Shown here one piece after another: positions 4,647 through 24,473 of a DNA stretch of 64,000 bases. The notes beneath the pieces were generated by a model. It was not told the DNA's origin. It ran no database searches and saw only the letters and a program-made list of their open reading frames with translations. Numbering within the stretch: the first letter of the stretch is position 1; each line of letters opens with the position of its first letter. The position numbers were made by a program, and so were the translations under genes. The DNA comes from Streptomyces sp. NBC_00271 (GTDB taxonomy: Bacteria; Actinomycetota; Actinomycetes; Streptomycetales; Streptomycetaceae), in contig NZ_CP108070.1 of NCBI RefSeq assembly GCF_036178845.1, positions 868,001-932,000 of the forward strand, read 5' to 3'.

Positions 4647-6020
4647 TCAGGCCCGCACGGTGCCGTGCGGGCCTGGCCCCGGTGTGTCAGTTCTGCAGGC
4701 TCCAGTGCTGGTTCGCACCGCCCGTGCAACTCCATAGCTGAACTCTCGTCCCGTTGGCGGTCCCCTGGCCGCTGGCGTCGAGGCAGAGCCCCGACTGTGC
4801 TGCTTTGATCGTGCCGTCGGGATTGACGTTCCATTGCTGATCTGCCTGCCCGCTGTAGTCTCAGATCGCCGCCGGGGTGCCGTTGCCCGCTGTCTGGCCG
4901 ACGCCCAGGCACTTGTTGCCGTAGACGACCAGCTGCTTTCCGGCGGTGTAGGTCCACGTTGGTTGGAACCGCCGTTGCAGTCCCACAGTTGTGCTTGCGT
5001 GCCGTTGGCCGTGGTGAAGTTGTTGATGTCCAGGCAGCGCCCCGCCTGCTGGCCGACGATCTCCTGGTTGCCGGACGGCGGTGGCGAATTCGAGCCGAAC
5101 TGTGTGAAGAACTGCCACACCGCTGCCGACGTCCAGGTGCGCCAGCCGTCACCGGTGGAGCCGTCGATGGGACCGGGATCGTGACCCGCTCCGTCGAAGG
5201 CGGCCCAGACGACGGGGTATCCGGACCTGCATCCGGAGTAGGTGGTGGTGATGTGTGTCAGGCTTCCGTTGGCCGGCTCGGGCGGGTTCTGCGGGGTGCA
5301 GCCGTTCGCCCGCACGAACGTGTCGCGCAGTTCCCGTCCCGATGAGATGGGCAGCACGTTGTCCCTCAGGCCGTGCAGACCCATGTAGGCGATGGGCTGT
5401 GTGCCGCCGTTGCACCCGCTGAGGTTCGCGCCGGAGTAGACCGCGACCGCACGGAAGACGGTCGCTCGTGAGCAGGCGAGGGCGTATGACATCGCGCCGC
5501 CGTAGCTGAAGCCGGCGGAGAACAACTGGGTGGTGTCGACGCACAGACCTGATTCGAGCTGGCTGACCATGGCGTCGACGAAGGCCACATCTTGGCCGCC
5601 GGGGTTGGCCCAGCCGTTGCCGTTGCCCTGGGGGGCGACGAAGATCGTGCTGTTGTTCGCATTGTCCGCCAGGCGCCGCAGACCGTAGTAGGACCAGTTG
5701 TACCCGTCCGTTCCGCCCGAGTCGACGTCGTTGGCCGTGCCGCCTCGCCAATGGAAGCCGAAGATCAGCCGGTAGGGGTGGTTGCTGTCGTAGCCGGCGG
5801 GGACCCGCAGTATGTAACTGCGCGTCTGGCCGCCGCTCTGAATCGTGTGTGTGCCACTCGTCAGCGTGGGCGCCTTGCCGCAGCCGGCGGTCGGACTGAG
5901 GGCGCCGGTGGTCGTGGCCGACGTGGGCGGGCCGAGGCCGCTGCTGAACGAGGTGCCCGCAGCTGTGAGTACGAGAAGTACCGCGGCCACGATGGACACT
6001 AAGAGCGGTTTGCGTTTCAT
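4647..6020 (-). CDS. Secreted CE1/PHB-depolymerase-family esterase with broken CBM13
   Basis: The signal peptide MKRKPLLVSIVAAVLLVLTA is followed by an alpha/beta-hydrolase domain (about residues 50-320) of the poly(3-hydroxybutyrate) depolymerase / feruloyl-acetylxylan esterase type. Seen: nucleophile motif GFSYGG and the catalytic-His region GAGHDPG. It likely removes feruloyl or acetyl groups from hemicellulose outside the cell. A ricin-type CBM13 starts at about residue 335 but is broken: one base appears lost near 4963, and in the restored frame a TGA near 4862 replaces the Trp expected after AAI. The ancestral stop is at 4687-4689; the present frame runs on in a wrong frame to 4647. The catalytic domain is intact, so a truncated enzyme may still be made. 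GAAGGA precedes the ATG. Last gene of the minus-strand hydrolase run. Confidence 0.75.
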   Translation of the reverse strand: MKRKPLLVSIVAAVLLVLTAAGTSFSSGLGPPTSATTTGALSPTAGCGKAPTLTSGTHTIQSGGQTRSYILRVPAGYDSNHPYRLIFGFHWRGGTANDVDSGGTDGYNWSYYGLRRLADNANNSTIFVAPQGNGNGWANPGGQDVAFVDAMVSQLESGLCVDTTQLFSAGFSYGGAMSYALACSRATVFRAVAVYSGANLSGCNGGTQPIAYMGLHGLRDNVLPISSGRELRDTFVRANGCTPQNPPEPANGSLTHITTTYSGCRSGYPVVWAAFDGAGHDPGPIDGSTGDGWRTWTSAAVWQFFTQFGSNSPPPSGNQEIVGQQAGRCLDINNFTTANGTQAQLWDCNGGSNQRGPTPPESSWSSTATSAWASARQRATAPRRRSETTAGRQISNGTSIPTARSKQHSRGSASTPAARGPPTGREFSYGVARAVRTSTGACRTDTPGPGPHGTVRA

Positions 6021-6122
6021 GCATTCCTTCTTCCGTAGTCGGGGGATGGGCAGGGAGCGCCGGTCGATTGGGACGGGTACTGCGTGCGGCGGTGACACCG
6101 CGACGAACGAGGCTGGGGTGGT

Positions 6123-22767: not shown

Positions 22768-22877
22768 CGTCATCCTCCTGTGGCGACGCGTGTGCCCGGG
22801 GATGCCACGCGGCTGTCCACGGTGGCGAGTGCGCCCGTGGCCGACGGTGCGCCGGCCACGGGCTGGAGAGGTTCAGG

Positions 22878-24473
22878 TCAGCCGAGACGCCATTGCTGGT
22901 TCGATCCGCCGTTGCACGGCCAGAGTTCGGCAAGGGCGCCGTTGGCCGTGGAGGCTCCGGTGACATCGAGGCAGAGCCCGGACTGCGTTCCGGTGACGGT
23001 GCCGTCGGAGTTCGTCTGCCACTGCTGGTTGGCGCCGCCGTTGCACGGCCAGGTCACCACCTTGGTACCGGTGGAGGTCTGGTTGTTGTACGCGTCCAGG
23101 CACATGTGGCTGCCGCCGCTGTAGACGGTCAACTGGTTGGAGGACGTGCGCGTCCAGGTCTGGTTGGCGCCGCCGCTGCAGTCCCAGATCTGCAGCTGGG
23201 TGCCGGCCGTGGTGGACGAGTTCGGCACGTCCAGGCACTTGCCCGCGCCCACCGCGTGCAGCGCTCCGGTGCTCGTCCCGCCGGAGGAGTTGCTGTATCC
23301 GGCCGCCGTGATGTTGGCCTGGACCGCGTTCTCGGTGGCGTCCGAGGGGTAACCGGAGGTCATCACGCCTTCGTAGAAGGTGCCTTGGGCGCCCTTGCTG
23401 TTGTCGCCGCCGATGCCCAGGATGATGGCACCCTGCTTCCGCATCGGGTTGTAGCCCGAGACGTTGGGGCGAGGCCCGTCGTAGAAGGTGGACAGTCCGC
23501 CGGACTGCGCGTTACCGCCACGGATCCCCCAGTGGTTCGGGCCGCCCTTGATGATGGCGGTCGTATACCGGTAGTTGATGGTCGGGTCGTTCGCGTTGTA
23601 GCGCTGGTTCACGCCGGAGAACAGACCGTTCTCCAGGTCGGCCATGATCCACGGGCCGTTGCCGCTGCCGTAGCCCCAGACCTTGATGTTGCCGAAGTAG
23701 ATGGCCTCCATGGTGCCGTTGCCGTCGTCGTTGCTGTCCGTCTCGGCGTTGCCGTAGTCGAAGCAGCAGCCGCCGTTGTAGTGCGTGCCGTCGAAGATCG
23801 CGTACATGCCCTCGGGGTTGTCCCCGGTCGCGATGCCGTTGGTGTGGTTGTTGCGGTACCCCGTGCCGGGCGCCACGAAGACGCCGTAGGCCTTGTGACC
23901 ACCCACCATGGTGGGCGCGGCGATCGCGTTCGCGAGGTTGTCGGGGCCTCCCGCGGCACCGCCCCCGGGCGCCTGGGTGAGGTTGTTGCTGCGGCCCGAC
24001 TGGTCGTAGATGATCGTGATCAGGCAGGTCGTCCCCGAGCAGAACGAGTCCTGCGCGGCGGCGTCGGCATACCCGCCCGCGCCCAGCAGGCCGATGTCCC
24101 GGGTGGCGTTGTCCGAGGCCCGCCGGACCTGGTAGAGCGGCCCGTTGTACGAGGCGTACAGGGCTCGGGTCGTGCTGTGCGCCGCCACGCAGGGCGTACC
24201 GCCTGCCGCGTAGAGGTCGCACGGCCCGGACGTGGCGGCCCGCGCTGTGCCGGCCGTGGCCGTGGCGCCGACCAGCGCACCGGCGACGAGCACGGCCGCG
24301 GCCCCTGCCCGGGCGAACCTTTTCGGCCCGGAACGGGACAAGTGCGCCGTCGGTCGGACGCGTTCCCGGTCCGGCACATGTTCCGGCCGGCCACGCCGCC
24401 GTACCGCGGCGAGCAACCACGGGACGCCACCGCGCCTTGAGAGCGAGCGGCGTCTCGCACGTGTGGTTCCCAT
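22878..24473 (-). CDS. GH54 alpha-L-arabinofuranosidase with C-terminal CBM13
   Basis: A 531-aa secreted enzyme and the third GH54. The N-terminus is long and basic ([16 protein letters not shown]) before the signal helix at about 54-78; GGGAG lies about 5 bases before this ATG, so the long start is kept. Catalytic domain about 83-400 with [31 protein letters not shown] and GIGGDNS; all expected catalytic and vicinal-Cys features are present. CBM13 about 408-531. It is closest to the 12455-14017 protein in domain order. Two LacI-like operators lie upstream (24534 and 24652), suggesting direct repression by one of the nearby LacI proteins. Confidence 0.92.

Follow-up and report, generated by a model that had tools for sequence, protein, structure and literature searches.

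The 64-kb stretch of DNA from Streptomyces sp. NBC_00271 examined here (NZ_CP108070.1; hereafter the window, whose positions serve as coordinates) probably carries a two-operon, LacI-controlled polysaccharide-utilisation regulon of the Gram-positive kind, directed at glucuronoarabinoxylan with compound side chains (estimated probability of about 0.6). A LacI-controlled utilisation regulon is proposed because a conserved row of enzyme genes, the adjacent importer operon and a palindrome common to both occur together, the palindrome also accompanying importers elsewhere in the chromosome.

Organization of the locus

Eleven consecutive genes occupy the minus strand at 4647-24473 in the order EST, GH29, GH59, GH39-like, GH54, GH27, GH54, GH10, GDSL, GH141-like and GH54 (Table 1). 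An eleven-enzyme, one-strand row had been proposed in a sequence-only reading, and its families and order are borne out by Pfam, for seven of the eleven genes also by relatives of known structure. The description of gaps mostly under 110 bases with one ATGA overlap holds as well: nine of the ten junctions measure 110 bp or less (102, 50, 33, 24, -4, 42, 345, 37, 47 and 110 bp in coordinate order), the -4 being the ATGA overlap between GH27 and GH54, and the 345 bp between GH10 and GH54b could leave room for a second promoter ahead of GH54b. Wherever a ribosome-binding-site-like sequence and an N-terminal hydrophobic stretch could be made out clearly, they decided the gene start (for GH59 the start of the ORF was taken), and secretion was read from hydrophobic N-termini, not by a signal-peptide program.

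The locus had been placed at 4647-24473, an extent that covers the row but misses the promoter region at 24474-25000 and the six-gene operon beside it at 27140-35146, which encodes a LacI regulator, a binding protein, two permeases, an MGH1-like glycosidase (predicted fold poor, pLDDT 63.6) and a second GH39-like enzyme. Within 31 kb, Pfam recognizes 12 CBM13-type secreted enzymes, a solute-binding protein (SBP), two permeases and two LacI regulators. A Gram-positive polysaccharide utilisation locus combines co-located degradative enzymes, a transporter and a regulator, and all three are found together here. The SusC/SusD pair, the marker of Bacteroidetes loci, had no Pfam match in the 39 window ORFs scanned, a subset of the total. 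Elsewhere in the window lies a cellulase/xylanase set that appears to be separate and is accompanied by a different palindrome.

Table 1. Genes and putative operators of the proposed regulon, in window positions
Feature	Position	Strand	Evidence
EST, feruloyl-esterase-like alpha/beta hydrolase; C-terminal CBM13 out of frame	4647..6020	-	PDB 8jh8 feruloyl esterase, E=2e-76
GH29 + CBM13, alpha-L-fucosidase or alpha-L-galactosidase class	6123..8105	-	PF01120 1.1e-89; PDB 9lxl, 4ni3
GH59 + CBM13	8156..10564	-	PF02057 7.4e-114; galactocerebrosidase structures 4.2e-104
GH39-like + CBM13, predicted disaccharide side-chain release	10598..12430	-	PDB 5u22, 8uwt by sequence and fold
GH54a + CBM13, alpha-L-arabinofuranosidase class	12455..14017	-	PF09206 6.8e-141
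GH27 + CBM13, alpha-galactosidase type, Asp at specificity position	14014..15696	-	PF16499 7.9e-75; PDB 1uas
GH54b, CBM13 N-terminal	15739..17241	-	PF09206 3.1e-137
GH10 endo-xylanase class + CBM13	17587..19062	-	PF00331 2e-117
GDSL/SGNH acetyl-esterase-like; CBM13 out of frame	19100..20272	-	PF13472; PDB 2vpt, 5b5s, 5b5l
GH141-like beta-helix enzyme + CBM13	20320..22767	-	PDB 5mqp BT_1002 6.4e-43; Pfam GH141_M below cut-off
GH54c + CBM13, first gene of the row	22878..24473	-	PF09206 1.7e-161
Putative operator O1, GAATCGATTC, upstream of enzyme row	24653..24662	.	
Putative operator O2, GAATCGATTC, 337 bp upstream of O1	24990..24999	.	
LacI1 regulator, divergent from row	25976..27019	+	Pfam; recognition helix SRSTVSYALSGKRPV, identical to that of LacI2
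GH39L2, second GH39-like enzyme + CBM13	27140..28990	-	
MGH1-like glycosidase, no signal peptide by eye	29062..30798	-	PF22422 6e-52; PDB 2z07 2e-11
ABC permease B	30877..31701	-	PF00528
ABC permease A	31698..32690	-	PF00528
ABC solute-binding protein (SBP)	32692..33939	-	PF13416 6.8e-59
LacI2 regulator, first gene of importer operon	34124..35146	-	Pfam; recognition helix SRSTVSYALSGKRPV
Putative operator GAACCGATTC before LacI2	35162..35171	.	
Putative operator GAACCGGTTC before LacI2	35245..35254	.	
Putative operator GAACCGGTTC before LacI2, second copy	35386..35395	.	

The idea of a shared lectin module on nearly every enzyme survives in part: CBM13 is intact on nine of the eleven enzymes in this genome, being out of frame in the EST and GDSL genes (through assembly error or decay), but the modules are of several types and not one. 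The copies of GH54a, GH27 and GH54c are 74-78% alike and those of the GH39-like and GH141-like enzymes 80%. Those of GH10 and GH29 are just 24-41% like others in the row; with several types present, a single recent duplication was rejected as their source. In relatives, every one of the 11 gene types is found with CBM13, which was present in 268 of 279 orthologous ORFs from 32 of 37 Streptomyces loci.

Conservation across actinobacteria

The loci compared were chosen by their GH39-like gene (80 named, comprising 37 in Streptomyces and 43 outside it) and are related, so that the counts are not independent. Among 392 Streptomyces genomes, 19 have a full-length GH39-like ortholog (at least 83%), and this genome is one of them. 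S. pseudovenezuelae is among the species with the cluster. Four to eleven row genes are kept in window order on one strand in 28 of the 37 Streptomyces loci, and other actinobacterial genera hold reshuffled versions of the gene set; the check for a lack of conserved neighbourhood in relatives, proposed with the sequence-only reading, therefore did not overturn it. Its notion that one branched glycan is served by a purpose-built, operon-like system gains support from this order, the reshuffled sets and the operator word shared by the two operons.

Outside Streptomyces, 24 of the 43 loci had another core family, and in 22 at least one of LacI1, MGH1, SBP and a permease was present at no less than 50%. 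Among 20 arbitrary 20-kb control regions, ten from this genome and ten from a same-order genome, 19 contained no member of the nine core families; the remaining one had a single weak match (GH29, 31%). In 17 of the 43 non-Streptomyces loci the GH39-like gene had GH10 close by, versus none of the 20 controls; 16 of the 37 Streptomyces loci, some with incomplete fetched stretches, gave no GH10. GH62 and an esterase are likewise repeated neighbours of the GH39-like gene in other genera. MGH1 was detected in 16 of the 19 Streptomyces genomes with the GH39-like gene (three had none) versus 61 of the 373 lacking it. In a plasmid collection, GH39 relatives reached at most 38% identity, in six records. 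Titles and abstract openings of literature on clusters with these families yielded no description of this Streptomyces locus.

A palindrome shared by both operons

The word GAAYCGRTTC occurs five times in the window, twice before the enzyme row and three times before the importer (expected 0.18; a count of five was reached by none of 100 shuffles), with no further copy in the 64 kb. Its 11-base form has 24 distinct genome sites, five of them in this 64 kb (binomial 1.5e-7). The other 19 comprise ten inside predicted ORFs and nine between, and they look like background, as the three adjoining proteins scanned were DNA polymerase III beta, undecaprenyl diphosphate synthase and one without a match.

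The sites are conserved in relatives. Of 18 Streptomyces regions upstream of the row, that of the window among them, 17 have at least two exact copies, mostly 335-342 bp apart. Of 68 non-Glycomyces loci, 40 had sites, 116 in all; the 12 Glycomyces loci had none, and the best of 59 other permuted palindromes reached 41 sites. Importer operons in trans carry the word too: all six countable MGH1 operons, from four Streptomyces genomes, have two or three sites 4.26-4.73 kb upstream of MGH1, the window's own lying at 4.36-4.59 kb. In other families, five genomes have seven such sites between them, each lying 158-785 bp ahead of a GH54 or GH59 gene. From this placement, row and importer may be jointly regulated by LacI through the shared palindrome. 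In 30 of the 80 loci the fetched sequence has operators but does not include the exact LacI helix. Other leader blocks are conserved as well as the operators are, and a second palindrome, AAGCGCTT, also occurs twice in the row promoter, so other regulators may matter. The literature search found no description of the operator word, and the parts of the literature consulted for a link to BxlR gave no operator sequence for that regulator.

Predicted specificities and the target polysaccharide

The catalytic glutamates of the GH39-like protein, E150 and E255 (NEP and NEY motifs), are invariant in 22 aligned sequences, and its fold is best matched by 5u22 and 8uwt (TM 0.78-0.85); in both respects it agrees with GH39 enzymes of the GAfase/AAfase/NF2152-like type. 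Its predicted product is a disaccharide taken from a side chain that contains arabinose. The GH27 motif, DDCW, has Asp at both neighbouring candidate specificity positions (located by motif, not by alignment with SaArap27A), where beta-L-arabinopyranosidases have Glu or Ile; that activity was dropped, and the arabinopyranose reading once attached to this enzyme is no longer favoured.

Three candidate substrates had been named, a list that now appears too wide: feruloylated, acetylated glucuronoarabinoxylan is favoured and the others less so. Glucuronoarabinoxylan with compound side chains is preferred over arabinogalactan-protein (AGP) because feruloyl-esterase-like, acetyl-esterase-like and GH10 genes stand in the row and GH10 neighbours the GH39-like gene in other genera. 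Complex glucuronoarabinoxylan bears L-Gal, alpha-D-Gal and xylosyl decorations, according to one report (PMC4491172). Counting against a xylan reading, the authors who described the xyl-doc cluster believe that its GH27 and GH59 work on galacto(gluco)mannan (PMC6556953).

The same co-regulated system might instead act on side chains of AGP or plant gum, the GH39-like enzyme freeing Gal-alpha-1,3-Ara or Arap-beta-1,3-Ara and GH27, GH59, GH29 and GH54 trimming the rest, which we regard as possible though unlikely. The decorations of AGP would suit GH54, GH27, GH59 and fucosidases. 1,6-Galactanases are among the CBM13-bearing GH5 enzymes of Streptomyces, and a GH5-like CBM13 protein at Kutzneria locus L061, whose PDB matches cover its CBM13 only, could be a galactanase, making a link to AGP possible at that locus. 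The Bifidobacterium GH39 GAfase/AAfase clusters, beside LacI, SBP and permeases, are also described as acting on gum arabic and larch AGP. However, the two esterase types and GH10 are hard to place on AGP, Pfam matched no protein of the eleven-gene row to a galactanase family, the loci of other genera repeatedly include GH10, GH62 and an esterase, and the GH27 enzyme has Asp rather than Glu or Ile.

A neighbourhood of separately regulated hemicellulases, held by common descent and not one functional unit, is improbable. Related genomes do share gene order by descent, and the separate-looking cellulase/xylanase set would be consistent with independent regulation; yet the sets are reshuffled in other families and the operator is shared in cis and in trans. 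The outer flank also differs (no ALDH relative above 33%), a weak point since sequence was fetched to no more than about 4 kb beyond the esterase domain. Least credible is a pectin target, with GH54 removing branches from arabinan of RG-I or RG-II-like chains: BT_1002 is the structure nearest to the GH141-like enzyme and NF2152-type GH39 is described as an arabinofuranobiosidase, but the eleven row proteins gave no Pfam match to pectin lyase, pectin methylesterase, endo-arabinanase or rhamnosidase families and the row includes GH10 and xylan-type esterases.

Proposed regulon

Under the glucuronoarabinoxylan reading, operon 1 (24473 to 4647), presumably transcribed as one unit, would supply eleven CBM13-tagged secreted enzymes that strip the polymer. 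Its esterases would remove feruloyl and acetyl groups; GH27, GH59, GH29 and the GH141-like enzyme would cleave terminal sugars (alpha-D-Gal, beta-Gal, L-Gal or L-Fuc); the GH39-like enzyme would lift off sugar-arabinose disaccharides; and the three GH54 enzymes would remove arabinofuranose, leaving a bared backbone for GH10 to cut. Operon 2 (35146 to 27140) would import the released small sugars through its ABC system, the MGH1-like glycosidase splitting them inside the cell. LacI1 and LacI2, whose recognition helices are identical, would repress both operons by binding the GAAYCGRTTC palindromes, presumably in response to an inducer, and the two sites of operon 1, about 337 bp apart, may allow DNA looping.

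More tentatively, and with somewhat less than even odds, the core may be an undescribed disaccharide-salvage pathway leading from secreted GH39-like enzymes, which would detach entire two-sugar side chains from xylan, through a dedicated ABC importer to a cytoplasmic MGH1-like glycosidase of new specificity, under GAAYCGRTTC-binding LacI repressors, the eleven-enzyme row being a Streptomyces elaboration of a core that is widespread among actinobacteria.

Streptomyces are major plant-litter decomposers, and long secreted-hydrolase operons are regarded as a Bacteroidetes or cellulosome habit. A conserved, probably LacI-switched complex-xylan locus would provide a defined enzyme set for trials on corn-bran-type fibre and predicts activities for the GH59, GH39-like and MGH1-like proteins, and the operator word could be used to find such regulons in other actinobacterial genomes.

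Comparison with known systems

The nearest known system is the xyl-doc cluster of Ruminiclostridium cellulolyticum, a 32-kb operon of 14 secreted enzymes, 13 with CBM6, induced by straw and arabinoxylan (PMC6556953). Both share GH10, GH27, GH59, feruloyl and acetyl-xylan esterase types (CE1 and CE6 in xyl-doc) and arabinofuranosidases, which are GH43/GH62 there and GH54 here. The fucosidase-type family is GH95 in xyl-doc and GH29 in the row, the GH39-like and GH141-like enzymes are a further difference, and CBM13, with no dockerin family by Pfam, replaces the CBM6 and dockerin that serve the cellulosome. Xyl-doc is controlled by the two-component activator XydS/XydR, whereas a putative LacI-type operator is common to the row and the ABC importer operon here.

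The Bifidobacterium GAfase/AAfase clusters likewise place GH39 beside LacI, SBP, permeases and an extra glycosidase for the released disaccharide (PMC10688797, PMC8939339). That partner is GH36 there and MGH1-like here, the importer operon giving no GH36-type Pfam match, and here a large xylan-type enzyme row bears the importer's operator. PUL-XylL of Bacteroides ovatus (PMC4491172) is also a dedicated complex-glucuronoarabinoxylan locus with unusual side-chain families (L-galactosidase, alpha-galactosidase); it is a Bacteroidetes locus with surface and periplasmic enzymes, its families being GH95, GH97, GH31 and GH98, whereas the Streptomyces locus has ABC import and other families.

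Gene content and architecture of the enzyme row

The window (bases 868001-932000 of an 11.93-Mb contig in a 12.28-Mb genome) contains a Gram-positive utilisation regulon that is real and conserved and, judged from its sequence, very probably co-regulated. Pfam and PDB comparisons bore out the sequence-only reading of an eleven-gene, one-strand enzyme array, both in gene identities and in consecutive order (EST, GH29, GH59, GH39-like, GH54a, GH27, GH54b, GH10, GDSL, GH141-like and GH54c). In the PDB comparison, EST matched a feruloyl esterase structure (2e-76) and the GDSL protein matched acetyl-esterase structures. 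The ten intergenic distances along the row are 102, 50, 33, 24, -4, 42, 345, 37, 47 and 110 bp; a simple scan of 4000-23990 revealed no promoter-like sites, and its single minus-strand terminator-like site is internal to the GH39-like gene, at the coding start, rather than intergenic. The 345-bp gap ahead of GH54b is a possible internal promoter; a direct repeat (AACATGGGATG) and a palindrome (TGACACTGTGTCA) were seen there by eye.

The same reading placed a shared CBM13 on nearly every enzyme. In 32 of the 37 Streptomyces loci the eleven gene types are represented by 279 orthologous ORFs; scoring with a profile built from the window's own modules found same-frame CBM13 on 268 of them, and to this extent the tag holds; however, the modules of the row are of several types, and those of EST and GDSL are out of frame in this genome. 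Both are usually in frame in Streptomyces orthologs (28 of 29 and 24 of 27, respectively), and their state here reflects either decay or assembly error. From sequence comparison, only the modules of GH54a/GH27/GH54c and of GH39-like/GH141-like look like recent copies.

Upstream of the row are a divergent LacI gene and then an importer operon, whose MGH1-like glycosidase has no visible signal peptide.

Coordinates of the regulon and of neighbouring features in the window
Feature	Position	Strand	Content
MFS transporter fragment	3412-4386		downstream of row
Enzyme row	4647-24473	minus	eleven genes
EST CBM13	4647-5000		out of frame
Gap ahead of GH54b	17242-17586		345 bp
GDSL CBM13	19100-19400		out of frame
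Row leader	24478-24625		conserved non-operator blocks
Palindrome AAGCGCTT	24536-24543, 24977-24984		row promoter
Operators before row	24653, 24990		GAAYCGRTTC
PETase-like hydrolase remnant	25038-25979		between row and LacI1; then apparent CBM13 start (by eye)
LacI1	25976-27019	plus	regulator gene
Importer operon	27140-35146	minus	LacI2, solute-binding protein, two permeases, MGH1-like glycosidase, second GH39-like enzyme with CBM13
Operators before LacI2	35162, 35245, 35386		GAAYCGRTTC
Cellulase/xylanase set	36790-53324		separate set
TGGGAGCGCTCCCA	38288, 38524, 52291		last copy with one mismatch
GH10-GH62 protein	50204-52261		single protein

Conservation of the locus

Of 392 Streptomyces genomes, 19 (counting this one) have a full-length GH39-like ortholog (at least 83%). 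We compared the best 80 of 86 named loci, 37 from Streptomyces and 43 from other genera, including Kutzneria, Actinacidiphila, Streptacidiphilus, Catenulispora, Actinospica, Actinoallomurus, Planotetraspora and Glycomyces; these loci are related and were selected through their GH39-like gene, which makes the counts non-independent. The conserved neighbourhood sought in relatives was present: 28 of the 37 Streptomyces loci carry four to eleven row genes on one strand in window order, and in 22 no more than one of the other eight core families is missing. In a further two, L043 and L048, the order is broken solely by an extra copy, and one locus (L110) has the GH39-like gene without other row genes. 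In the other genera the gene set is smaller and reshuffled, with at least one other core family beside the GH39-like gene in 24 of 43 loci, at least two in 14, at least three in 9 and none in 19; LacI1, MGH1, the solute-binding protein or a permease was matched at 50% identity or more in 22. These reshuffled sets are the stronger evidence. Among 20 control regions of 20 kb (ten from this genome, ten from a same-order genome), 19 had no core family and one had a weak GH29.

MGH1 was detected in 16 of 19 GH39-like-positive versus 61 of 373 negative Streptomyces genomes (Fisher 7e-10, kinship not corrected for). For 38 matches of the second GH39-like type (E 1e-54 to 3e-47; weaker matches set aside), an MGH1 gene is at most 4 kb away in 28 cases and at most 12 kb away in 4 more.

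A shared putative operator

A palindrome scan of intergenic stretches identified the candidate operator GAAYCGRTTC, present exactly five times in the window against 0.18 expected, a number reached in 0 of 100 shuffles; its 11-base form has 24 distinct sites genome-wide, five of them in the window. Nineteen GH54c upstream regions of at least 900 bases were compared, with the Streptacidiphilus one set aside, and each of the 18 Streptomyces regions, that of the window among them, has one or more exact operators, 17 of them at least two. The two copies stand 335-342 bp apart in 13 regions, and three regions have spacings of 320, 329 and 348 bp. In L119 there are three copies, at intervals of 103 and 180 bp, and the second copy in L115 has one mismatch. 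Column conservation is 96% and 92% in the two operators and 71% between them, while leader parts (94-98%) and the adjacent AAGCGCTT (99%) are equally conserved. Upstream of GH54 in Streptacidiphilus carbonis (L071), a member of another genus with a reshuffled cluster, two one-mismatch operators stand 336 bp apart, nearly the Streptomyces spacing.

AAGCGCTT is a second palindrome, with its sole two window copies both in the row promoter; 8 of 100 shuffles likewise reach two, and the copy at 24977 is ~99% conserved across the 18 sequences. Another regulator may act at this promoter, with LacI3 a tentative candidate. The non-operator blocks of the leader (94-98%) include the CCGAAACCTCTCTGCAAT stretch, and a CTTGAC box appeared by eye to be kept in most rows.

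Across the 68 non-Glycomyces loci, 40 contain 116 operator copies, versus 41 copies for the best of 59 other permuted palindromes, and 10 of the 116 fall inside mapped domains, which span 46% of bases. The 400-kb control (20 regions) had one copy. The 12 Glycomyces loci had none, and their LacI matches are just 28-33% like the window's LacI. LacI1 and LacI2 have the recognition helix SRSTVSYALSGKRPV in common; it occurs exactly in 10 of 80 loci, all with the operator. In another 30 the operator is present and the fetched stretch lacks the exact helix; the remaining 40 lack both.

The operator also accompanies the importer operon away from the row. In all six MGH1 operons of four Streptomyces genomes, the four covered out of eight chosen, MGH1 has two or three copies lying upstream at 4.26-4.73 kb (G282, with MGH1 4.0 kb from the contig start, was left out). 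These operons are 37 kb to megabases from the row or on a separate contig, and the distance matches that in the window (4.36-4.59 kb). Two other families, represented by five genomes, have seven operators at 158-785 bp upstream of a GH54 or GH59 gene and, in each genome, 3-9 within 20 kb of such a gene (six of seven sites covered for one genome; G031, which has six sites and lacks a full-length match to GH54 or GH59, left out of scoring). In one Streptomyces with GH54 and GH59 genes and without the GH39-like gene, none of its seven sites is so placed. Elsewhere in the genome, an operator-like word (L169:1501) precedes a gene for DNA polymerase III beta by ~100 bp; it is probably a chance or unrelated site.

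Substrate and known systems

The feruloyl-esterase-like and acetyl-esterase-like proteins, GH10 and three GH54 of the row fit a feruloylated, acetylated glucuronoarabinoxylan target. Of the 43 non-Streptomyces loci, 17 have GH10 and 7 have GH62 in the neighbourhood of the GH39-like gene, versus 0 of 20 controls for each. Nineteen proteins scanned from seven such loci, a subset of ORFs, include GH10-CBM13, a CBM13 esterase, GH62-CBM13, GH51-type, GH6 and GH12; Kutzneria L061 has one GH5-like CBM13 protein, a possible galactanase. Complex xylans carry L-galactose, alpha-D-galactose and xylosyl decorations (excerpts of PMC4491172), which would provide work for the GH29/GH141-like, GH27 and GH39-like enzymes. 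Counting against a xylan role for GH27 and GH59, the authors of the R. cellulolyticum xyl-doc cluster see galacto(gluco)mannan as the target of their own members of these two families (excerpts of PMC6556953).

The GH39-like model (pLDDT 91.8) has 5u22 and 8uwt as best structural matches, and the NF2152 arabinofuranobiosidase of PMC10688797 is very likely the protein in 5u22 (N2152). GAfase and AAfase, GH39 relatives from bacteria, work on the side chains of arabinogalactan (PMC10688797, PMC8939339), so arabinogalactan-protein is kept as a less likely alternative target of the system.

As described in excerpts of PMC6556953, xyl-doc is an operon for 14 dockerin-bearing enzymes of the families GH43, GH10, CE1, GH62, COG3533, GH27, GH59, GH2, CE6, GH95 and GH30, 13 of them with CBM6, and is induced by straw and arabinoxylan; against that portrait, the window system would do comparable work with a different tag and regulator. 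The Bifidobacterium GH39 clusters, as excerpted, share LacI, the solute-binding protein and permeases with the window system, but have GH36 in place of the MGH1-like protein.

The window also carries a separate cellulase/xylanase set (GH12, GH6, CBM13-GH62, GH27-CBM13, GH43, GH10-GH62 and GH6). Within it lie the copies of TGGGAGCGCTCCCA, which we take to be the CebR operator.
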